A stretch of 64,000 nt of DNA. Source: Geomonas silvestris. GTDB taxonomy: Bacteria; Desulfobacterota; Desulfuromonadia; Geobacterales; Geobacteraceae. The DNA is taken from assembly GCF_014193515.1 (NCBI RefSeq), contig NZ_BLXX01000001.1, positions 682,001-746,000 on the forward strand, in the 5' to 3' direction. The stretch's first letter is position 1. Every line of letters starts with the position of its first letter. Made by a program: the position numbers and the translations under genes. Shown in pieces: positions 3,692-64,000 of this stretch. The notes beneath the pieces are model-generated. The model was not told the origin of the DNA. It did no database searches and saw nothing but the letters and a program-made list of their open reading frames with translations.

Positions 3692-5302
3692 CTACAGCCT
3701 GAACCGGGTGACCAGCTGTTTGAGATCCTGCGCCTGGGCTGCGAGGGTACCCGCCGATGCCGCGGTTTCTTCGGCGCCGCGGGCGGTCTGCTGAACCACC
3801 TCCGAGATCTGCAGGATATTGCTGGTAACCTCGCCGGTGGTCGCCGTCTGTTCCTCGGCTGCCGTGGCGATCTGGCTTACCTGCAGGGAAACCTCGTTGA
3901 TGCTGTTGAGGATCATCTCCAGGGCCTCTTCCGAACGCGAGGAGGCTGCCGCTCCCTTCTCGACTTCCTGCACCCCCTCCTCCATGGCGCATACCGCCGT
4001 CCTGGTCTCTCCCTGGATGGCCCGGATCATCTCCCCTATCTCGCGGGTCGCCCTCGTGGTGCGCTCGGCAAGGGCGCGGACCTCGTCGGCCACCACGGCA
4101 AAACCGCGTCCCTGCTCGCCCGCCCTGGCCGCCTCGATGGCCGCGTTGAGCGCCAGGAGGTTCGTTTGGTCGGCGATGTCTTCGATGGTCCCGACGATGG
4201 CGCCGATCTGGTCCGAACGGGTGCCGAGCGCCTCGATGCTGACCGAGGTGGCCCGTACCCGCTCGGCGATCACCCCCATCCCGACGATGGTTTCCTCGAC
4301 GATCGCCGCCCCGGCTTGGGCCGCCTGGGCCGACCGCGCCGACGCCTCGGCTGCAACCGTGCAGTTGCGGGCGATGTCGGTGCTGGTCGCCGCCATCTCT
4401 TCGCTGGCGGTTGCCACGGTATTGGACTGGGCGACGGTCTCCTCGGCACCGGTGGCGATCTGGTCCGACGTGGAGCGCAGCTGTCCCGAAGCCGTGGCGA
4501 CCGAGCCGGATATGTCGATGATCTGGGAAACCATCTGGCGCAGGTTCCCGACCATCTCGCCGAGGGCGCCGAGGATCATGCCGACCTCGTCCTTGCTGTC
4601 GCTTTTCACCTCGCGGGAGAGATCGCCCGAGGCCACCGCCTTGGCTATCTCGACGGCATAGTTGATCTGCTTGAGCACCGCGCGGCTCACCGTCAGGCAG
4701 ATCCCCCCGACCACGAAGGCAATGAGGAAGGTGCCGGCAAGGGAGAAGAACATGGCGGTCCGCTTCAGCGCCAGTGCCTCCTTGGCCTTGGTGCGTCCCT
4801 GCTCGATGTTGAAATCGATGTGCTTGTCGAAGGCCTTGCCGACCTCCATGAGGATCTGCTGGTTGGCCATGAGCAGGTCGCGCGCCTCGTTCTTTTTTCC
4901 CTCCCGGGAGAGGACGAGTACCTGGTCCCGGACCGCGACGTACTTGGCGAGCGAGTCCCGGTCCACCGCCAGGAGGAGTTTGTCCTGATCGTTGGAGAGG
5001 TCCTCCTTCTCGTACTTCTTGAGCGTTTCGTCGACCGCGTTGGTGTTTTCGGTGATCTTTTTCTCCAGCTTGGCCATCTCGGCCGGATCGGTCTGAGCGA
5101 CGTGCTGCCAGACGCTGACCCGCACCGTGGTGAGCGCGTTGACGGCGTTGGTGAGATGGTCCAGGCTGGGAACCGTGTTGGTATTGGCGTAGTTGGCCGC
5201 ATCGAAGACCTTCCCGGTCTCTAACTGGTTCATACCCGCCAGCAGGATGAGGCCGAGCAGCACGGCGGCGAAGATGATCTGCATCTTTCTTGCGATGGTC
5301 AT
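3692..5302 (-). CDS. Methyl-accepting chemotaxis protein
   Basis: 536 residues. There is an N-terminal transmembrane helix (about 8-26), a periplasmic four-helix-bundle type sensor of ~160 residues, a second membrane helix near 195-215, a HAMP segment, and the long cytoplasmic signalling hairpin with the highly conserved tip ([34 protein letters not shown]). It relays ligand binding to CheA/CheW and is adjusted by methylation. The protein ends in LVTRFRL, with no NWETF-type pentapeptide for tethering CheR/CheB. A near-consensus sigma-28 promoter lies about 80 bp upstream (5382-5408), so expression is probably tied to flagellar regulation. Confidence 0.95.
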
Positions 5303-5381
5303 AAAGAGATACTCCTGACGGTTTCCCCGCTGGACACGGTCCCGATGTTAAGGCCGGAAAAGGTTTTGACTCTTCTTGAAC

Positions 5382-5408
5382 CTATCGGCGTGTACGGCAA
5401 AAACTTGA
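5382..5408 (-). promoter_or_regulatory. Sigma-28 (FliA)-type promoter of the chemoreceptor gene
   Basis: On the minus strand the sequence reads TCAAGTTT (5408-5401), 11 bases, then GCCGATAG (5389-5382). The bacterial flagellar sigma consensus is TAAAGTTT-N11-GCCGATAA, so 14 of 16 positions match with exact spacing. Predicted initiation is near 5373, about 70 bases before the ATG at 5302. Confidence 0.75.
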
Positions 5409-5656
5409 GGGGGATCCTGCGCGTAACCATCCTTAATCACTAGGCATAAGACAAATCCGACAAGGGCGCAGGCGAAACTTACCTCGAGTTCCACCGTCTC
5501 CCTTGCCGCGAGATTTTGTCCCTCCCGCCCCTTGCGCGAGGGGGAATCGAGGTGGCGCACGAGCCGCAGTGCGGGTCCCCTTGCCCTTCACGCGAAAGGC
5601 GCAAAAGGAGTATCATCGTGGAGTCAGCCTACACCTCACCCCCAGGAGGGCCAGCG

Positions 5657-6415
5657 ATGTCGACCACCTACCTTCTCGAAGAGCAGGGCCTACAGGATCT
5701 CACCCGGTTCACCACCCGCGGCACCTTGTTCGCGTTCGATCTCGACGGGACCCTGGCGCCCATCAAGGTGCACGCCAGCGAGGTCCGGCTCGCTCCCGAA
5801 CTGTTCGAGGCACTGAAGCGCCTGGACCAACTCACCAACGTCTGCGTCCTCACCGGCCGATCGCGGAAGGACGCCCTCGCTATCCTGCGCATGGACCTGC
5901 GGCTCGTGCTGGGGAACCACGGCTGCGAGTGGCCGCCGGAGCTTAGGCCCCGAAACAAGCGGTACATCGAGAAAGCCGGAAGCTGGAGGGCGGTTCTGGA
6001 GAAGGGATTTACAGAGGAGCGCGGCGTGGAGATCGAGTACAAGGGCGAGACCCTGGCGATCCACTACCGCGGTGCGCCGGACCCTGACCAGGCGAGGCTG
6101 CGCATCGAGAAGTTGGTAGGAGAGCTCATCCCGGCGCCGCGCGTCATCGGCGGCAAGTTCGTGATGAACCTGCTTCCGATGGAGGCGGAGACCAAGGGGA
6201 CGGCGCTCGTCGAGGCCATGGAGTTCGTGGGAGCGGGGCAGGCAATCTATATAGGTGATGACGTAACCGACGAGGAAGTCTTCAAGATGGCGCTCCCTAA
6301 CCTTTTGGGGGTGCACATAGGCACCGAACCCTGGACTGCCGCAACGCATTACCTGAAGGAACAGGGGGAGATTACGGCAGTGGTTCAGACCGTGGTGCGG
6401 CTATTGGGGGGGTGA
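5657..6415 (+). CDS. otsB: Trehalose-6-phosphate phosphatase (OtsB-type HAD phosphatase)
   Basis: 252 residues from the ATG at 5657, which has CAGGAGGG seven bases upstream; the frame is open further upstream but without a comparable site. HAD motif I is DLDGT (residues 28-32, Asp nucleophile D28). Later come LTGRS, NHGCEW and a late GDDVTDEEVF acidic motif, typical of OtsB, which removes phosphate from trehalose-6-phosphate to give trehalose, an osmolyte. No otsA synthase lies next to it, so the substrate supply must be encoded elsewhere. A sugar-phosphatase of related specificity is the alternative. Confidence 0.88.
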   Translation: MSTTYLLEEQGLQDLTRFTTRGTLFAFDLDGTLAPIKVHASEVRLAPELFEALKRLDQLTNVCVLTGRSRKDALAILRMDLRLVLGNHGCEWPPELRPRNKRYIEKAGSWRAVLEKGFTEERGVEIEYKGETLAIHYRGAPDPDQARLRIEKLVGELIPAPRVIGGKFVMNLLPMEAETKGTALVEAMEFVGAGQAIYIGDDVTDEEVFKMALPNLLGVHIGTEPWTAATHYLKEQGEITAVVQTVVRLLGG

Positions 6416-6439
6416 TCGGGGTAGTCTATTCAGCGATTC

Positions 6440-6474
6440 AGGAAAAAAGAAAAAGGCCAGCTTTTCAGCTGGCC
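6440..6474 (-). terminator. Rho-independent terminator after tRNA-Gln
   Basis: A perfect 8-bp stem (GGCCAGCT 6455-6462, AGCTGGCC 6467-6474, loop TTTC) is followed on the minus strand by a T-rich run (complement of 6443-6454). It ends transcription coming through ispE and the tRNA, and faces the end of otsB. Confidence 0.8.
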
Positions 6475-6485
6475 CTTCATATTTA

Positions 6486-6560
6486 TGGCAGGGGCGACAG
6501 GGATCGAACCTGTGAATGCCGGAATCAAAATCCGGTGCCTTACCGCTTGGCGACGCCCCT
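6486..6560 (-). tRNA. tRNA-Gln (anticodon UUG)
   Basis: The minus strand folds as a cloverleaf: acceptor AGGGGCG/CGCCCCT, anticodon stem CCGGA/TCCGG with loop TTTTGAT (anticodon TTG, read CAA), T-arm ACAGG-TTCGATC-CCTGT, discriminator G and an encoded CCA (6486-6488). It starts 8 bases after the ispE stop and has no promoter of its own in sight, so it is probably cut from the ispE transcript. Confidence 0.96.
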
Positions 6561-6568
6561 ATTCTCTT

Positions 6569-7411
6569 TTAGATGCTGCGTACGGCGGCGGTGAACCAGC
6601 CGTGCTCCTCTGCAAGCTCGGCTGCCGCCTGCTTTGCCGTCTTCTCGTCGGCAAAGAGCCCGAAAACGGTGGAACCGCTGCCGGACATCAACACGCCCCG
6701 TGCTCCGGCGGCGCTCAAAAGCTCTTTCAGCTCGCCGACCCTCGGATACCTGCCGATGGTCACCGGCTCGAGATCGTTGGAAAGTACCGCACAGATCTCG
6801 TCGAGGCCGGCGTAGGAACTCGAAACTTTAGCGGGTTCGTTTTTGTTTGTCAATCTCAAATTTTGGTACACCCAGCCGGTGGAGACGTGGATCCCGGGGT
6901 TCACCAATACCACCCATACTTCGGGGACCTGCTCCAAGGCGGTGAGCAGGTTGCCGATCCCCTCGGCAAGGGCGGGTCTCTTGAAGATGAAGAAGGGGAC
7001 GTCGGCTCCCAGCTTCACCCCGATCTCCATGAGCTTCTCGTCGCTCAATCCCAACTCCAGCAACTCGTTCACCCCCATGAGGACGCTCGCGGCGTCGCTG
7101 CTGCCGCCGCCCAGCCCGGCCCCGACCGGGATGTGCTTCGCGATGGTGATGTCGATGCCGACCTCCTTGCCGGAGAGCTGCAACAGGGCGTCGGCCGCGC
7201 GCCAGGCGATGTTGCCCGGCCCGTCCGGAGCGCCCCCGCCGTCGCAGGTGACCCGAACGCCGGGGGTTTCGCTCAGGGCGATCTCGATGTCGTCGTTAAG
7301 ATCGACGCGCTGCATCAGCATGCGCAGGTCGTGGTAGCCGTCGGGTCTCTTGCCAAGGACGTCGAGCCGGTAGTTCACCTTGGCGGGGGCCTTTAACTGC
7401 AGTTTCTTCAC
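6569..7411 (-). CDS. ispE: 4-diphosphocytidyl-2-C-methyl-D-erythritol kinase
   Basis: GHMP-family kinase of the methylerythritol phosphate route to isoprenoids. It phosphorylates CDP-methylerythritol at the 2-hydroxyl. The N-terminus has [20 protein letters not shown] with the catalytic Lys. The glycine-rich ATP loop is [13 protein letters not shown] near residue 95, and a third GHMP motif near the C-terminus reads [13 protein letters not shown] prefer the GTG at 7411 (280 residues) because AAAGGGGAG sits just upstream and the protein then starts MKKLQLKAP; ATGs at 7432 and 7429 are alternatives that overlap the previous gene. It lies downstream of the DUF294 gene and is followed by tRNA-Gln. 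Confidence 0.92.
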
Positions 7412-7428
7412 GTTGTTCTCCCCTTTCA

Positions 7429-8619
7429 TCATGTGCCGCTGCCCTGACCGGTGCGTTCTTTACCCTGGAACCGGCAGCGCAAAAGGCGCTGCAGCTGCCG
7501 CACCGATTCGAGCGCTTCCTTTAACCGCTCCCGGTCGCCTTCTGCGAGGGCGGCGGGGCTCAGGTAAGGCTGCTCAAGTGCTATCTCGCGACGCACCTTG
7601 AATCCCGCCAGCACCTGGTAGGCGGCGCTGAAGCGCTCGGCCTGGCCACCGGTAAATACCCCCAGGGTAGCCAGCGCGGCGATACGCTCCAGGGTCGGTC
7701 CGGTCTCGAGGTCAAGTTGGGCAGCCAGGAGGCGCACCGCCCCTACCAGTGGCTGCAGCCCGTCCTTTTCCGGATTGAGACAGCCGGCATGGTCGCCGGT
7801 CTTCTCAACCCGCAGCCCCCCCAGCATGCGCAGCGCCACCGGCTGTTCGGACACCTCGCGCGCCAGGTCGTGCAGCTCCTGCCCGTCGCGGCTGCGGGCG
7901 AGGAAGTCTCGAGCGTTTTTTAGGGCGGCAGCGCCGATGGCCTCGTCGCCGCAGACGACGCGCAGATCGGCCACGGTCTCCAGCCGGTTGGGCTGGTCGG
8001 GAGGCTGGACCTCTCCGCTAAGGTAGTGTTCCCACTTCTCGAGCGAGCCGCGCCAGAGCGCCTTGCCGAGAAATGCTCCCTCTTTGCCGATCAGGCCGTA
8101 CTGGTCCAGGATCGCGATGATCCGGTAGGCGAAGGGCTCGAAGTAGCCGGTTGTCTCTTCGCTCTTCCAGACCAGGACGCAGCGGTCGCTCTCTTCGAGG
8201 GTCTGCTCGCAGCGCCCGAGGCTTCCCGAGGCGAGAAGCGCAAAGGGGGCCGGAGCGTGTCCCTCGTCGTTGAGCTCCGGCCCCTCTTCGGCGAACTGAA
8301 GCACGCGGCGCAATACCCCGTCGCGCCAGGCGTTGCAGAAGCCCTGCAAGGCGGCCACCGACCCGCGCCGCACGTAGTAGGCGGCAACCAGGCGCTCGAA
8401 GCGGTTCAACAGGGGGGGAAGCTGGTCGAGGTACTCGGCGTGCCACAGCTCGGAGAGCACTCTGCCGAAGGAGGCGGAGGCACCCTCTTCGAAGGCAAGT
8501 TCCTCGGCGATCCAGCTCTTGAGATCCTGGATCGTCTCGAGGGTCTGCTCCGGAGTGAACTGGCGACTCCGCTCGTAGAGGATCTTCTTGGCCCCGATCA
8601 CGAGTTCCGCGTCGCTCAT
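7429..8619 (-). CDS. DUF294-type putative nucleotidyltransferase (signal-transduction family), degenerate active site
   Basis: 396 residues from the ATG at 8619, which has AGAGGA five bases upstream. The layout fits the DUF294 and DUF294-C pair found in proteins usually called putative signal transduction proteins: a helical N-terminal half, then a nucleotidyltransferase-like [16 protein letters not shown] (residue ~150) and a C-terminal helical domain. In the family as I know it the motif ends in a metal-binding pair (TDQDN type). Here those positions are Ser and Arg, so catalysis may be lost. There is no CBS or cyclic-nucleotide domain. Its stop overlaps the region of the ispE start, which suggests cotranscription. 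Substrate and role are unknown. Confidence 0.8.
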
Positions 8620-8668
8620 TGTTTCCTCTGCAAAGGCCGGCACATGAACACCTGGTAAACGTGGATTG

Positions 8669-9886
8669 TTAGGAACTGTGGTCGAGACGCTGCTCGGACT
8701 TCATGATCTCACTCATGACGCAGGTGGCGTAGGAGCCGCGGGGGAGCGCGAAGGAGACCACGAGGTCGCCTCCCTCCTCGACGATCTCGACGCCGCTCAG
8801 CGGCACGCGCAGGGGGCGCCGCTCCCCTTCCATGCGCAGCCCGCCGGAGAGGTCGAAGCTTGCCAGGGTGAGCACCTCGGCCGCCAGGAGTCCCTGCTCC
8901 AGCTCGCCCTGTCCCCCGGTCGCCTGCAGCATGGTGCAGCCGAACATCGGGCCGGTGGAGGAGATCTCGAAGCTGGCGGCGCGCGGCGCCTCGGCTGCGG
9001 CATCCTCGACCTTGAAGCAGGCGCCGTTGGCGTGTTTGAAAGCTATATCCCCCGTCTCGAGGGTGTCCAGCCGATCCAGGCGCGCCTCGACGACGCGGTC
9101 GAAGAGCGAGGACTGGAAGGCCGACAGGTAGAGGCGCTTCAGCCGGGGCTGCGCCGCGTGGAAGGCCCGGGCGAAGTCGTCGGGGCGCTGCAGCAGCCGG
9201 CCGATGATCTCGCGCTCGGTCCGGCAGTAGCCGGGGAAGAGCTCCAGGCTCTGGGCCAGGTCGCCGCGCCGGTATGCCTCGATCGCCTCGCGCCAGCGCT
9301 CGTCGCTCACCTGGGCGGAGTCGCCGATGAGGACGTCGATGGCCCCGCGGTAGTCGCCGCGCAGCATCGCGGCTCCGATCTCCTGCGAGTTTCCCTGGAC
9401 GCCGTAGCGCTGCGACCCGAAGCGGTTGGGGACGCCGCGCTTCTCCAGGATGGCGAGGGTCTGCTGCGCCCGCTCCAGTGCGGCCGGCTCGACCCCGCGC
9501 ACCCGGATCCGGAAGCGGTTACCCTTGAGGTGTCCAAGCCTCAGCTTGTTGCCGTGTTTGGCGGCGCTTACCACCGTGACTCCGGGGATGGCGAGGGCGA
9601 GCACCTTGTCCGGGCTCACCCGCGGGATGGAGACGAACTGCCGGGTGATGCCGACGGAGTCCTTCATCCCGGCGTAGCCCAGGTCGCGCTCCTGGACACC
9701 GAGGGCCTTGGCGAGACGTCGCAGCATTTCCAGGGTGGTGATGCCGCGCTTCTCGATCCAGGCGAAGCAGTGTTCGCCCAGCCCGCTGGGAAGGTAGGCC
9801 GGGACCTCCTCGACCTCGAAGTCCTCGGGACTCCCCTTGATGCTCCCACCGGTTCCCGGTATCTCCGCGGTCAGATATCGCTGCAC
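8669..9886 (-). CDS. truD: tRNA pseudouridine(13) synthase TruD
   Basis: Converts U13 of certain tRNAs to pseudouridine. The N-terminus has GGSIKGSPEDFEVEEVP. The family signature GYAGMKD (Asp ~75, the catalytic aspartate by family comparison) is followed by ITRQ, and NRFGSQRYG in the middle is also typical of TruD. I choose the GTG at 9886 (405 residues) because AAGGGGAGG lies just before it; ATGs at 9925/9922 would add 12-13 residues with a poorer site. The protein is longer than the E. coli enzyme (349). First of a minus-strand run truD - DUF294 - ispE - tRNA-Gln. Confidence 0.93.
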   Translation of the reverse strand: MQRYLTAEIPGTGGSIKGSPEDFEVEEVPAYLPSGLGEHCFAWIEKRGITTLEMLRRLAKALGVQERDLGYAGMKDSVGITRQFVSIPRVSPDKVLALAIPGVTVVSAAKHGNKLRLGHLKGNRFRIRVRGVEPAALERAQQTLAILEKRGVPNRFGSQRYGVQGNSQEIGAAMLRGDYRGAIDVLIGDSAQVSDERWREAIEAYRRGDLAQSLELFPGYCRTEREIIGRLLQRPDDFARAFHAAQPRLKRLYLSAFQSSLFDRVVEARLDRLDTLETGDIAFKHANGACFKVEDAAAEAPRAASFEISSTGPMFGCTMLQATGGQGELEQGLLAAEVLTLASFDLSGGLRMEGERRPLRVPLSGVEIVEEGGDLVVSFALPRGSYATCVMSEIMKSEQRLDHSS

Positions 9887-58356: not shown

Positions 58357-58397
58357 TTGACCTGGGTCATACCCGCCAAAGCTGCCGGTGCTAGGAT
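58357..58397 (+). promoter_or_regulatory. FNR/Crp-family-type palindrome and -10 of the small-peptide transcript
   Basis: TTGACC-TG-GGTCAT at 58357-58370, centred about 40.5 bases before the predicted start that follows TAGGAT (58392-58397). This is class II activator geometry. The box is nearly identical to the perfect one at 58953, so one regulator probably reads both. TTGACC half-sites recall HcpR-type members of the Crp/FNR family; the regulator gene is not in the window. Confidence 0.6.
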
Positions 58398-58445
58398 GGC
58401 GAAAGAGAAAAGCTCCGCCCCCGGGCGGATAACCGGAGGTTTACC

Positions 58446-58535
58446 ATGGAACTCGTCGTGATCATAATGGCCCTGACCTGGATGCTTGCCGCCGCCGTGT
58501 CGCTCTGCCCGCTGTGCCACGCCCCGCAGGAATAA
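58446..58535 (+). CDS. 29-residue hydrophobic peptide with a CXXCH haem-attachment motif
   Basis: ATG at 58446 has a full GGAGG six bases upstream, and the frame ends at TAA 58533-58535. The peptide runs MELVVIIMALTW, MLAAAVSL, CPLCH, APQE. About 19 hydrophobic residues form a signal anchor or membrane helix, followed directly by CPLCH (Cys21 to His25), which fits the CXXCH signature for covalent haem c attachment if the C-terminus is periplasmic. It is far shorter than any cytochrome I know. A CXXCH can arise by chance, but the ribosome site, the upstream activator box with -10, and the terminator at 58696 make a self-contained gene. It lies 550 bp before the nitrate reductase operon and shares its control box. 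A metal-binding or regulatory peptide is the alternative. Confidence 0.6.
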   Translation: MELVVIIMALTWMLAAAVSLCPLCHAPQE

Positions 58536-58695
58536 GCGTCGACGTGCTCGTTCCGGGTGCCTCCTGCTGCGGCAGCGGCAGCGGCGCCCCGGAAGCAGGC
58601 CGCCGCCCGTGCCCCTTCCCGTTGAGCGGTTTTTCCACTCTCCGCTTCGCCATCGATATCGCGAGCCTCACCTAACACCCACCTCCCAGGCCCCG

Positions 58696-58732
58696 AAGAC
58701 TCCCTCTCCGGCCGGAGAGGGAGTCTTTTTTG
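58696..58732 (+). terminator. Rho-independent terminator of the small-peptide transcript
   Basis: A 14-bp perfect stem (AAGACTCCCTCTCC 58696-58709, loop GGCC, GGAGAGGGAGTCTT 58714-58727) followed by six T. It separates the short transcript (about 58404-58730) from the nitrate reductase promoter region. The 160 bases between the peptide stop and this hairpin are GC-rich and can fold further (CCTGCT at ~58562 with AGCAGG at ~58595). Confidence 0.92.
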
Positions 58733-58952
58733 TTTTCTAAATATTTTCCAACGCTTTACTCCTATCCCGCATTCCTACCTCGCCGTTTAAATTCCCTACC
58801 GGCAAAGCATAAATCTACTCGGGTGCTAGAATCTCAACGGCCTTGTGACAGTGGCAGATGGGCTCATTGAGTAAGACCGCATCTCCATTGGCAGTTTCAC
58901 GCTTACATCTGACTTTTTTCATGCGCGAGAACCGGAACAAACCCGCACTTTT

Positions 58953-58994
58953 TTGACCTAGGTCAAGAACCGTTTCAAAATCCTGTTCTACAGT
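58953..58994 (+). promoter_or_regulatory. FNR/Crp-family-type palindrome and -10 of the nitrate reductase operon
   Basis: A perfect 14-bp palindrome TTGACCTAGGTCAA (58953-58966) is centred 41.5 bases before the start predicted from TACAGT (58989-58994), a textbook class II position. The leader before the cytochrome ATG (59081) would be about 80 bases. Anaerobic or nitrogen-oxide control of nitrate respiration is the natural reading. Confidence 0.7.
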
Positions 58995-59080
58995 CACCGT
59001 AAACAATCGCGCCGCAACCGGGGCGCGGTCTCCCGGACCGGTGCGACCTGCCGGGAAGCCACGACAAGGAGGAGCTCCAG

Positions 59081-59896
59081 ATGGTCCAAGGAACCAAGAC
59101 GCTGCGCACCCTGCTCCTGGTGTCGGCAGTCCTGGGCGCGGCAGTGAGCGCCCAGGCCGACACCGGAAAGGAGCTCTTCGAGAAACTCTGCGCCGGCTGC
59201 CACACGATCGGCGGCGGCGACGGAGGCGGCCCCGACTTGAAGGGGGTCGCCGCGAAGCACCCCGCCGCGTGGCTGGAGCGGGTGATCGTCGAGCCGGACA
59301 AGCTGACGGCGGAGAAGGACCCCGCGCAGCAGGAGCTCGTGAAGAAGTTCGGCATGGAGATGCCCAACCTCGGGGTGAGCCGCGAGGACGCCAAGAAGAT
59401 CGTGGCCTTCCTGGGAGGCGGTACCCCGGCTGAGGAAGCCGCCGGTGCCCCCGACGGGGCGCAGCCCGCGGCCGGCGTGGCGCCCGAAGCCGCCAAGGCC
59501 GAGGCCCCGGTGACCAAGGAGCTTTTGGCGACCGGCGTCGCGCTCTTCACCGGCAAGGAGCGCTTCGGCAAGGGGGGCGCCCCCTGCGTCTCCTGCCACC
59601 GCCTGAGCTATCCCGGCATCAACGGGGGTTCGCTCGCCAAGGACCTCTCCGGCATGTACGGCAGGCTGGGCGAGAACGGGACCAAGGGGGTGCTGAAGGG
59701 GCTCAGTTTCCCGATCATGAAGAAGATCTACGCCGAGCGCCCCTTGAGCGAGGAGGAGATCACCGCCCTCACCGCGCTCTTCAAGGACCAGGCCGCGCAG
59801 AAGCAGGCGGCGGATGATCCCTACCCCGCCGCCGGCCTCGGCTTCTTCGCCCTCTGCCTGGCCGGCGCCATCGCCTTCAAGAGGAGGATCCGCTGA
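59081..59896 (+). CDS. Diheme c-type cytochrome with C-terminal membrane anchor
   Basis: 271 residues, with AAGGAGG upstream. Signal peptide to about residue 26 (SAQA-D). Two haem sites, CAGCH (37-41) and CVSCH (169-173), lie in two cytochrome c folds joined by an Ala/Pro/Gly-rich linker (about 113-143). Likely axial Met residues are in MEMPNLGV and near FPIMKK. A C-terminal helix (about 248-264, followed by KRRIR) anchors it to the membrane with the haems outside. Its stop overlaps the narG ATG by one base, so it belongs to the nitrate reductase operon and may pass electrons to or from it. A similar cytochrome gene with nar is known to me from other Geobacter-like bacteria, but not its role. 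Confidence 0.93.
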   Translation: MVQGTKTLRTLLLVSAVLGAAVSAQADTGKELFEKLCAGCHTIGGGDGGGPDLKGVAAKHPAAWLERVIVEPDKLTAEKDPAQQELVKKFGMEMPNLGVSREDAKKIVAFLGGGTPAEEAAGAPDGAQPAAGVAPEAAKAEAPVTKELLATGVALFTGKERFGKGGAPCVSCHRLSYPGINGGSLAKDLSGMYGRLGENGTKGVLKGLSFPIMKKIYAERPLSEEEITALTALFKDQAAQKQAADDPYPAAGLGFFALCLAGAIAFKRRIR

Positions 59897-62800
59897 TGTC
59901 GAACCGGATAAAGGACGAGCGTTCGCCGGAGTCCCGCAACTGGGAGGAGTTCTACCGCAACCGCTGGCAGTACGACAAGGTGGTGCGCTCCACCCACGGC
60001 GTCAACTGCACCGGCGGCTGCAGCTGGATGGTGCACGTGAAGGACGGCATCGTCGGCTGGGAGCTGCAGGCCAACGACTACCCCCAGTTCGACGGCAGCG
60101 TGCCGAACCACGAGCCGCGCGGCTGCCCCCGCGGCATCAGCTACTCCTGGTACCTCTACAGCCCGCTGCGGGTCAAGTACCCCTACCTGCGCGGGGCGCT
60201 CTTGGACCGCTGGACCGAGGCCAAAGGGCGCTTCGACGACCCCGTCGAGGCCTGGGCCAGCATCGTCGAGAACCCCGAGGCCCGCGCCTCCTACACCGGC
60301 CGGCGCGGCATGGGGGGCTTTCGGCGCGGCGACTGGGAAACCGCCATCGAGATCATCGCCGCCTCCAACATCTACACCGCGAAAAAGCACGGTCCGGACC
60401 GGGTCGTCGGCTTCTCCCCCATCCCCGCCATGTCGATGATCAGCTACGCGGCCGGCACCCGCTACCTGCAGCTGTTCGGCGGCGTCGCCATGAGCTTCTA
60501 CGACTGGTACTGCGACCTCCCCCCCGCCTCCCCGCAGGTCTGGGGCGAGCAGACCGACGTGAACGAGTCGGCCGACTGGTACAACGCCTCCTACATCGTG
60601 CTGTGCGGCTCCAACGTCCCGATGACCCGCACCCCGGACGCCCACTACCTCTCCGAGGCGCGCTACCGCGGCACCAAGGTGGTGGTCATGTCGCCCGACT
60701 ACTCCATGGCGAGCAAGTTCGCCGACGCCTGGCTCCCGGTCGAGCAGGGGCACGACGGCGCCTTCTGGATGGCGGTGAACCACGTGATCCTCAAGGAGTG
60801 CTACGCCGACCGTAGCGTCCCCTTCTTCGACGACTACGCCCGCACGTACACCGACCTCCCCTTCCTGGTGGAGCTCACCGAGAAGGACGGGGCCTGGGTC
60901 CAGGGGGAGCTGGTGCGCGCCGACCGCTTCGAGCGCTCGGCCTCGCTCGAGCACGCCGACTGGACCCTGTGCGTCGCCGACCGTGCGGGAGAGGTGCGGG
61001 TCCCCAACGGCAGCCTCGGTTCGCGCTGGAGCAAGCAAGAGGGGAAATGGAACCTGGACATGAAGGACCAGGTGGACGGCTCGGAGATCGACCTCAAGCT
61101 CTCCTTTTTGGGGGAGCAGACGGCGCGGGTCCGCTTCCGCTTCGAGGGGGAAAAGGACGCCCTGCGCGAGGTGCCGGTGCGCCGGGTCGCGACCCGCGAC
61201 GGCGAGATCACGGTCACCACGGTCTTCGATCTCCTCATGGCGCAGTTCGGGGTGTCGCGAGGTCTCAAGGGGGACTACCCGCACGGCTACGACTCCGAGC
61301 TCCCCTTCACCCCGAAGTGGCAGGAGAAGCACACCGGCATCGACGCCGAGACCGTCCTGAAGATCGCGCGCGAGTGGGCGCAAAACGGCGAAGAGAGCGG
61401 CGGGCGCAACATGGTGATCATCGGCGCCGGGGTGAACCACTGGTACCACAACGACCTCATCTACCGCGCCGCCATCACCGCGCTCATCCTGACCGGCAGC
61501 GTCGGGAGAAACGGCGGCGGGCTCGCACACTACGTAGGGCAGGAGAAGGTGGCGCCGCTCTCCCCCTGGACCTCCATCGCCATGGCCCACGACTGGGTGA
61601 AGCCCTCGCGGCTGCAGAACACCCCGAGCTTCTGGTACATCCACTCGGACCAGTGGCGCTACGACCGCTCCTTCGTCGACTACTTCAAGCCGGAGACCGG
61701 GGAGAAGATGCCGATGCACGCGGCCGACTTCAACGCCAAGGCGGTGCGCCTGGGGTGGCTCCCCTTCGCCCCGCACTTCGACGAGAACCCCCTGAAACTG
61801 GTGGAAAAGGCCCAGGCGGAAGGGGCCCAGTCCGACGCCGAGATCCGCACCTGGCTGGTGGATCGCCTCAAGAAGGGGACCACCCGCTTTGCGGTGGAGG
61901 ACCCGGACAGTGCGGGGAACTCCCCCAAGGTCTGGTTCATCTGGCGCGGCAACGCGATCTCCTCCTCCGCCAAGGGGCACGAGTTCTTCTTGAAGCACGT
62001 CCTGGGGGCCCCCAACGCGAGCTTCACCGCGAAGGAGGTCGCCAAGGGGCAGGTGAAGGACCTGGTCTGGCACGAGAAGGCGCCCGAGGCGAAGGTGGAC
62101 CTGGTGGTCGACTTGAACTTCCGGATGGACACCTCCACCCTCTACTCGGACATCGTACTGCCTGCCGCCACCTGGTACGAGAAGAGCGACCTCAACACGA
62201 CCGACATGCACTCCTTCGTGAACTGCATGGACGCGGCGGCCCCCCCCTCCTGGGAATCGAGAAGCGACTGGAAGATCTTCTCCGCGGTGGCCAAAAAGGT
62301 GAGCGAACTCGCCGAGAAGCACCTCCCCACCCCGGTGAAGGACGTGGTGGCCGCGCCGCTTCTGCACGACACCCCGGGCGAGATCGCCCAGCGCCGGGTG
62401 GCGGACTGGAAGCTCGGCGAGTGCGAGGCGATCCCCGGCAAGACCATGCCCAACCTGGCCGTGGTGGAGCGCGACTACCCGAACATCTACCAGCGCTTCC
62501 GCTCCCTCGGCCCCGACATCGGGCACCTGGGGTCGCACGGCAACTACTACGACGCCGACGACGAGGCGGAGAAGCTCCTCGACACCCTCCCGACCCGGGA
62601 GTTCGCCGGGAAGCTGCGGGTCGACCTGGAGGAGGAGAAGACCGTCGCGGACGTCATCCTGACCCTCGCCTCCGAGACCAACGGGGAGCTGGCGCACCGC
62701 GCCTTCCAGAAGCTGGAGAAGCGTGTCGGCAAGCCGCTAGCCTCGATCTCCGCAGGCAATCGCGACTTCCGCATGAAGTGGGAGGACGTGACCCAGAAAC

Positions 62801-63465
62801 CGCGCCGGGTGATCAGCTCGCCGATCTGGAGCGGGCTCATGAACGACGGGCGCCCCTACTCCCCCTTCACCTTGAACGTGGAGCACCTGGTCCCCTGGCG
62901 CACCCTCTCCGGGCGGCAGTCGCTCTACCTGGACCACCCCTACTACCGGGAGTTTTACGAGGGGCTCCCCACCTTCAAGGGGAAGCTCGACCCGCGGGTA
63001 CTGGACGAGACCGAGGGGGAGACCGGGCTGGTGCTCAACTTCCTCACCCCGCACGGCAAATGGGGGATCCACTCCACCTACAGCGACAACCTGAGGATGC
63101 TCACCCTGTCGCGCGGCGGGCAGGCGGTCTGGCTGAACCACAAGGACGCCGAGAGCGCCGGGATCGAGGACAACGAGACGGTGGAGATGTACAACGCCAA
63201 CGGCGTGGTGGTCTGCCGCACCATCGTCTCCGCCCGCATCCCGCAGGGGGCAGCCATCATGTACCACGCCCCGGAGCGGACCCTCAACATCAAGAAGTCC
63301 AAGAAAAGCGGCAGGAAAGGCGGGGTGCACAACAGCCTCTCGCGCATCCGCCTGAAGCCGACCCTGATGCTCGGAGGCTACGCCCAGTTCAGTTACTACT
63401 TCAACTACTGGGGCCCCACCGGGGTGAACCGCGACAGCTACGTGGTGGTCAGGAAGCTCAAGTAG
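59896..63465 (+). CDS. narG: Respiratory nitrate reductase alpha subunit
   Basis: Catalytic molybdenum subunit of the membrane-bound nitrate reductase, reducing nitrate to nitrite. 1189 residues (E. coli 1247). The FS0 cluster ligands His34, Cys38, Cys42 and Cys77 (HGVNCTGGC, then RGCPRG) keep exactly the E. coli spacing with a constant offset of 15. The Mo ligand Asp is D207 in YCDLPPASPQVWGEQTDV, equal to E. coli Asp222. PDAHYLSEARYRGTK and VINxRxDxxTLYSDIVLP-like blocks match NarG. No twin-arginine signal is seen, as in cytoplasm-facing Nar. It overlaps the cytochrome gene by one base. Then follow 223 bp containing repeat copy D before narH. Confidence 0.98.
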   Translation: MSNRIKDERSPESRNWEEFYRNRWQYDKVVRSTHGVNCTGGCSWMVHVKDGIVGWELQANDYPQFDGSVPNHEPRGCPRGISYSWYLYSPLRVKYPYLRGALLDRWTEAKGRFDDPVEAWASIVENPEARASYTGRRGMGGFRRGDWETAIEIIAASNIYTAKKHGPDRVVGFSPIPAMSMISYAAGTRYLQLFGGVAMSFYDWYCDLPPASPQVWGEQTDVNESADWYNASYIVLCGSNVPMTRTPDAHYLSEARYRGTKVVVMSPDYSMASKFADAWLPVEQGHDGAFWMAVNHVILKECYADRSVPFFDDYARTYTDLPFLVELTEKDGAWVQGELVRADRFERSASLEHADWTLCVADRAGEVRVPNGSLGSRWSKQEGKWNLDMKDQVDGSEIDLKLSFLGEQTARVRFRFEGEKDALREVPVRRVATRDGEITVTTVFDLLMAQFGVSRGLKGDYPHGYDSELPFTPKWQEKHTGIDAETVLKIAREWAQNGEESGGRNMVIIGAGVNHWYHNDLIYRAAITALILTGSVGRNGGGLAHYVGQEKVAPLSPWTSIAMAHDWVKPSRLQNTPSFWYIHSDQWRYDRSFVDYFKPETGEKMPMHAADFNAKAVRLGWLPFAPHFDENPLKLVEKAQAEGAQSDAEIRTWLVDRLKKGTTRFAVEDPDSAGNSPKVWFIWRGNAISSSAKGHEFFLKHVLGAPNASFTAKEVAKGQVKDLVWHEKAPEAKVDLVVDLNFRMDTSTLYSDIVLPAATWYEKSDLNTTDMHSFVNCMDAAAPPSWESRSDWKIFSAVAKKVSELAEKHLPTPVKDVVAAPLLHDTPGEIAQRRVADWKLGECEAIPGKTMPNLAVVERDYPNIYQRFRSLGPDIGHLGSHGNYYDADDEAEKLLDTLPTREFAGKLRVDLEEEKTVADVILTLASETNGELAHRAFQKLEKRVGKPLASISAGNRDFRMKWEDVTQKPRRVISSPIWSGLMNDGRPYSPFTLNVEHLVPWRTLSGRQSLYLDHPYYREFYEGLPTFKGKLDPRVLDETEGETGLVLNFLTPHGKWGIHSTYSDNLRMLTLSRGGQAVWLNHKDAESAGIEDNETVEMYNANGVVVCRTIVSARIPQGAAIMYHAPERTLNIKKSKKSGRKGGVHNSLSRIRLKPTLMLGGYAQFSYYFNYWGPTGVNRDSYVVVRKLK

Positions 63466-63492
63466 ACCGTCAGATACCTCCACCCACTCGTC

Positions 63493-63599
63493 GTCCCCTC
63501 TCCCCCTGCGGGAGGGACAGGGTGAGGGGGAAGGCGCCACCTCGGCGCAGCTGGCAGCTTCACCCACCCCCCGGCCCCCTCCCGTCAAGGGAGGGGGGA
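63493..63599 (-). repeat. ~108-bp nested palindromic repeat, copy D (inverted), between narG and narH
   Basis: Reverse complement of copies A-C: GTCCCCTCTCCCCC-TGC-GGGAGGGACAGGG, GTGAGGGGGAAGG, GGCAGCTTCACCC, then CCCCCTCCC-GTCAA-GGGAGGGGGG. It occupies half of the 223-bp narG-narH gap. Nested hairpins here could stabilise or end part of the transcript and so set the NarG:NarH ratio. Confidence 0.92.
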
Positions 63600-63688
63600 T
63601 GTGGTTCGCGGAATTTCCGGCTGAACCTTCGAAGGGCGGTAACGGCAGCACCGGAATAACTCAATTAGGTGGCGACAAGGAGCCGCAT

Positions 63689-64000
<312 letters not shown>

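Follow-up and report, generated by a model that had tools for sequence, protein, structure and literature searches.

A conserved small-peptide gene of Geomonas and related genera, predicted to encode a single-pass membrane peptide of the nitrogen-oxide response

A 29-codon open reading frame (ORF) in the window (the whole stretch of 64,000 nucleotides of Geomonas silvestris analysed here; genome G000) is almost certainly a real gene, whose product is best read as a predicted single-pass membrane peptide. With a probability of roughly 55%, it would be an inner-membrane peptide of nitrosative or nitrate stress, placed under HcpR-type control and serving a membrane protein of nitrate or nitric oxide (NO) respiration as a small accessory or regulatory subunit. 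At the sequence level, conservation among related genomes covers the frame and its ribosome site as well as the promoter box and the gene context. The elements described in the initial annotation (a 29-residue ORF, GGAGG six bases before the ATG, an activator box, a TAGGAT -10 element and a terminator) were all recovered in the window, where the following features were delimited:

58357-58370, forward strand: activator box TTGACCTGGGTCAT, a predicted HcpR-type site with one mismatch to TTGACCNNGGTCAA
58389-58397, forward strand: extended -10 element TGCTAGGAT, 18 bp past the box, with TAGGAT at 58392-58397
58435-58439, forward strand: ribosome-binding site GGAGG, six bases ahead of the ATG
58446-58535, forward strand: peptide ORF, stop included (ATG 58446 to TAA 58535; 29 residues, MELVVIIMALTWMLAAAVSLCPLCHAPQE), with an orthologous frame in 24 genomes
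58500-58520, forward strand: codons 19-25 (SLCPLCH), with Cys21-Pro22 invariant and Cys24 in this genome only
58536-64000, forward strand: window part of a nar segment of ~9.4 kb (cytochrome c, NarG and NarH; the segment continues past the window end), delimited by comparison with G008
58695-58728, forward strand: terminator-like hairpin of 15 pairs with a T-rich tail, 159 bases past the stop
58953-58966, forward strand: TTGACCTAGGTCAA box without mismatch, ahead of the cytochrome c and narG genes

When the window peptide alone was searched against 58 relatives, a single strong match was obtained (5.1e-11) in G008, the nearest relative by peptide, and the remaining matches were weak. Short ATG-initiated frames of similar sequence, located behind a ribosome site, were present in 17 of the 18 other Geomonas genomes as well as in G023, G024 and G032; the G009 locus had an E-value of 0.22 in the single-peptide search, and its frame was then read. 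The second search used a profile of 20 frames, and 20 of the 24 members thus match by construction, while G001, G009, G060 and G061 were matched although absent from the profile. Within the family Geobacteraceae, the profile matched 24 of 48 genomes at E ≤ 3.7e-10 (next match 0.0095), namely all 19 Geomonas together with G023, G024, G032, G060 and G061, each with one copy. Across the order, 24 of 141 genomes were matched at E ≤ 1.7e-11 (next match 8.9e-4), and in the phylum sample 2 of 395 (G000 and G032), both already known members; absence beyond the family is less firm, since at most 20 candidates were scored per genome in the phylum search.

The weak profile matches beyond the family were left out of the 24 members, and four of them that were read by frame (L084-L087) had no convincing start or full frame. 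A frame in G022 (locus L180, ~4981-5064, minus strand; E = 0.0022) is probably a remote member of the peptide family: it has a GTG start and encodes VEFFVMAVAGIWAGVVALAFCMPTTRR, in which the Cys is present but is followed by Met-Pro, and a box stands 80 bp upstream. It was kept out of the 24 and scored as peptide-less in the association counts. A similar-looking 25-residue peptide without Cys (MELVVGFFAIIWLLTALLAIGARKY; E = 0.07) was encoded at 1501-1578 of locus L078 in G025, also outside the 24.

The view that this is a self-contained small membrane-peptide gene was borne out by 24 genomes in which this frame follows a ribosome site, the 20 upstream bases having been read in every member. 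Codons 2-24 showed pN<pS in 273 of 276 member pairs and, over the whole frame, the window and G008 differed by 4 synonymous changes in 21 sites and 4 nonsynonymous changes in 66 sites. M1, V5, W12, A17, C21 and P22 were invariant in an alignment of 23 rows. Each member has 27-33 residues and a hydrophobic helix (best 19-residue Kyte-Doolittle mean of 2.14-2.95); at 100 degrees, conservation was not significantly concentrated on one helix face (residues 3-21, p = 0.23; residues 3-20, p = 0.08). A chance ORF, in which the conserved element would be the promoter or the DNA alone, could draw on the shortness of the frame and on the conservation of the upstream promoter, but the synonymous excess, the invariant residues and the fact that homology with G008 ends within the last codon of the peptide make this explanation barely credible.

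The initial annotation had read the CPLCH sequence as a c-type haem site, proposing a minimal membrane-anchored monohaem peptide. Conservation of the frame and ribosome site did not extend to this motif: CXXCH was found in only 1 of the 24 members, and the nearest relative, G008, reads CPLRH. Residue 24 is Arg in 20 members, Lys in three and Cys in the window alone, where a single-base difference (TGC, against CGC in G008) creates the motif; G008 and G004 likewise have His25. Lys and Arg are absent from residues 1-4 of all 24 peptides, and 23 of the peptides carry one to five of them after the Cys-Pro. Basic residues of membrane proteins face the cytoplasm (the positive-inside rule) and c-type haem is attached on the periplasmic side; the basic tails therefore suggest that the C-terminus is cytoplasmic, on the wrong side for c-type haem. 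This composition suggests an N-out/C-in topology for the family, with the Cys-Pro and the basic tail at the cytoplasmic face. The topology of the window peptide itself is less certain, because its tail contains no Lys or Arg. A haem-peptide family was consequently rejected on the basis of the motif count and of the Arg or Lys at position 24 in 23 of 24 members. A monohaem peptide gained perhaps in the window species alone would account for its CPLCH, and His25 is shared with G008 and G004, but the same counts and the basic tails of the other members render it very improbable. Cys24 is best explained as a substitution of a conserved Arg in this genome only, with no haem attached. A motif in a single genome can thus mislead, and the 24 orthologues replace the haem story with that of a Cys-Pro membrane peptide.

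The remark that no such family is described was upheld in the libraries searched, as the matches to Pfam and NCBIfam (23 members searched) were all below the family cut-offs, and PDB sequences, searched with a profile, gave nothing at E ≤ 10. Candidates discarded in this comparison were Pfam Zf_2nd_IFT121 (0.012) and RUBY_RBDX (0.028), below cut-off and matched by the window peptide only (1 of 23 members), and NCBIfam GlyGly_CTERM, weak in 8 of 23 members (best 0.002) and taken to reflect a helix that has basic residues after it. CydX/YbgT is a single-helix peptide of similar size that serves a respiratory enzyme; despite this likeness, its model (PF08173) did not match the peptide, nor did it have any match over cut-off in six of six peptide-carrying genomes. 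TorE/NapE, as described in the available part of its source (PMC6134056), is likewise a small single-helix protein tied to nitrogen or TMAO respiration, but TorE has 56 residues and stands beside NapC/NirT-type cytochromes, whereas the present peptide has 27-33 residues and stands beside RIC, NorCB or Hcp. At E ≤ 1, the Pfam and NCBIfam matches obtained with the 23 members included no TorE/NapE family, in libraries that may lack such a model. Among the matches listed from open-licence full texts, no title or abstract start described the peptide. It is a new sequence family of 27-33 residues, found in Geomonas and some other genera of the family, and of a general kind that is known, that of small stress-linked membrane peptides.

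The genes identified near the peptide encoded RIC, NorC/NorB-like proteins, a hemerythrin and Hcp. An RIC/YtfE-type gene was located 17-204 bp ahead of the peptide gene in 16 of the 19 Geomonas genomes, while in G000 and G008 RIC was located elsewhere in the genome. In G015 (locus L051), an opposite-strand ORF of 390 residues (7192-8364) lay between RIC and the peptide; of the 17 Geomonas that have RIC nearby, no other shows such an interruption. Of the 19 Geomonas, 14 have a norB of this type no more than about 1 kb from the peptide, and 13 have hcp at a distance of up to 3.2 kb; in G000 and G015 hcp was 9.4-9.5 kb away, and in G008 and G018 a convergent hcp directly followed the peptide gene. 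Domain scans of one protein each assigned ScdA_N and Hemerythrin domains to RIC, COX1 to the NorB-like protein, Prismane to Hcp and Cytochrom_C to the NorC-like protein, for which the NorB_cytochrome_c-like model remained below cut-off; the names norC and norB were given by resemblance. A norBC cluster is stated for G. diazotrophica Red69 in the available text of PMC11633192. The view that the older gene link of the peptide is with RIC/YtfE, NorCB and Hcp, i.e. with nitric-oxide defence, holds on these comparisons of gene order.

The nar genes of the window, by contrast with this older link, appeared to have come near the peptide recently, since the nar segment parts the peptide from hcp in this genome only. 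Homology between the window genome and G008 extended up to window position 58531 (88%) and resumed at G000:C1:749928 before hcp (93%), the matching blocks in G008 being 4592-7086 and 7184-9250, so that the gap between peptide and hcp is ~9.4 kb in the window genome and 97 bp in G008. The intervening segment carries genes for a cytochrome c, NarG, what we take to be NarH, and further genes including one presumed to be NarK-like. As G018 agrees with G008, the nar operon is most simply read as a ~9.4 kb insertion right behind the peptide in this genome only; a possible alternative is that the segment was lost in both G008 and G018. The hairpin at 58695-58728, which had been annotated as a strong terminator of the peptide gene, is present at its 159-base distance but lies beyond the end of the G008 homology, for which reason it probably arrived with the nar segment and may not be an ancestral part of the peptide gene. 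The cytochrome c gene directly ahead of narG (window 59081-59896, forward strand; behind the perfect TTGACCTAGGTCAA box) encodes 271 residues, including two CXXCH motifs and a hydrophobic stretch at the C-terminal end. The window NarG is 89% identical to one of the two G004 copies, compared to 71% for the single copy of G008. In G011, a NarG match (G011:C22:228539-232078) contains one in-frame TAG, which may reflect gene disruption or an error in the sequence.

Concerning the promoter, all seven solitary copies of the peptide gene (G000, G008, G023, G024, G032, G060, G061) possessed a TTGACnnnnGTCAA box that has one mismatch or none and begins 81-118 bp upstream of the start codon. In the 17 remaining members, for which 1800 bp were searched, such a box at ≤1 mismatch was found in G018 and G015 only, far upstream. 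In the RIC-linked copies the box stands before RIC, with at most two mismatches in 6 of 16, and in the remaining 10 it reads TTGATCTG[GC]ATCAT, nearer to the FNR consensus. The RIC promoter of the window genome follows the same plan as its peptide promoter (box, 18 bp, TGCTAGGAT). Allowing one mismatch, the TTGACCNNGGTCA pattern occurred 121 times on the forward strand of the 5.1 Mb genome compared to 43 times for a reversed control, and the chance of such a box in a given 120 bp stretch is expected to be ~0.3%. The box fits the HcpR motif given for Geobacter and Desulfuromonas (wyTTGACnnnnGTCAArw), whose predicted targets include hcp, frdX and nar, and no small membrane peptide is mentioned in the available part of that paper (PMC1274295). 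In Porphyromonas gingivalis, HcpR is described as haem-dependent and NO-responsive in the available text of PMC12750200. Regulation of the peptide gene by nitrogen oxides is thus likely, and the activator would most likely be HcpR, an FNR-type relative being possible instead. Co-regulation with nitrate respiration, also proposed initially, stands insofar as a class-II-type box is common to the peptide and nar promoters, but the physical link to nar appears recent.

The association of the peptide with these genes was further inspected at the genome level, in a chosen set of 37 of the 48 family genomes (all 24 with the peptide and 13 of the 24 without it) and with p-values that ignore relatedness. 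In this set, narG was present in 19/24 genomes with the peptide and 2/13 without (p = 3e-4), norB in 18/24 and 3/13 (p = 0.005), and RIC in 22/24 and 7/13 (p = 0.013). Either narG or norB was present in all 24 genomes with the peptide and in 5/13 without (p = 3e-5), and this combined difference persisted outside Geomonas (5/5 and 5/13; p = 0.036), where narG (3/5 and 2/13; p = 0.10), norB (3/5 and 3/13; p = 0.27) and RIC (3/5 and 7/13; p = 1) were not significant when taken alone. Since every one of the 37 genomes has hcp, whether or not it carries the peptide, this gene is uninformative for the association. According to the available text of PMC11633192, G. terrae Red111 and O. rubra Red88 had low or negative norB values in the conditions tested while hcp-hcr was high, so that a norB neighbourhood is no proof of induction.

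RIC and NorCB are the obvious partner candidates, although neither was present wherever the peptide is. A dedicated subunit or assembly factor of the NorCB nitric-oxide reductase, comparable to the small helices of other respiratory complexes, would agree with the proximity of norB in most Geomonas, but norB of this type was not found in 6 of the 24 peptide genomes (G000, G008, G016, G018, G024, G032) and was present in three peptide-less ones (G027, G030, G034), which weakens a NorCB-only role and leaves it improbable. A membrane thiol partner of RIC/YtfE, in which Cys21-Pro22 at the cytoplasmic face would dock or exchange electrons with the Cys-Cys domain, is just as doubtful. The immediate succession of RIC and peptide in 16 of 19 Geomonas, the common promoter layout where the two genes are split and the invariance of Cys21 speak for it, and the vicinal cysteines of E. 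coli YtfE supply its di-iron site with electrons according to the available text of PMC9052748; against it, no RIC match was found in two of the 24 peptide genomes (G032, G061), and RIC was present in 7 of the 13 peptide-less genomes. The wider form of this idea, an NO-response thiol peptide whose Cys-Pro binds haem or, at RIC/YtfE, takes part in docking or in the transfer of electrons or NO, has an equally small chance of being right. If true, it would tie RIC/YtfE, a soluble enzyme with a di-iron site, to the respiratory membrane, and Cys24 would be a second thiol in the window species.

The lack of a constant partner (RIC and norB each absent from some peptide genomes, hcp in all 37 regardless) would also suit a general membrane-stress peptide resembling E. 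coli YohP, which would have no fixed partner, would lower membrane potential or fluidity and would damp metabolism under NO. Compared by description, both peptides fall below 50 residues with one hydrophobic helix and are made under stress (inferred for the present peptide), and effects of this type are reported for YohP in the available text of PMC12719787. The present peptide differs by its invariant Trp12 and Cys21-Pro22, which suggest a specific contact over bulk membrane action, and by its nitrogen-oxide gene context, and we consider a YohP-like action unlikely. YohP and TorE/NapE are models of how such peptides work and not families that contain it.

The accessory-subunit reading is therefore preferred over these alternatives as a working mechanism, in which NO or nitrite would activate a CRP/FNR-type regulator, most likely HcpR to judge from the promoter sequence, and the peptide would be made in the same programme as RIC/YtfE. 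The peptide would then insert as a single helix whose Cys-Pro and basic tail face the cytoplasm, as its composition suggests, and may assist or tune a membrane protein that takes part in nitrate or NO respiration. Present in all 19 Geomonas examined and mostly beside RIC, it is an overlooked candidate part of the NO response in a group whose nitrate-ammonifying Geobacteraceae, Geomonas included, are reported as N2O producers (PMC11633192, available text).

Elsewhere in the window genome, a box with a nearby TAGGAT was located at G000:C12:182669 (L160), ahead of a small gene (MEFKNGLGETAIQDVMAKYPQ...) and of a frame that is hemerythrin-like by eye, and this locus is a candidate member of the same regulon. 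Two more perfect palindromic boxes were located at G000:C2:143171 (L153) and G000:C10:134014 (L157).
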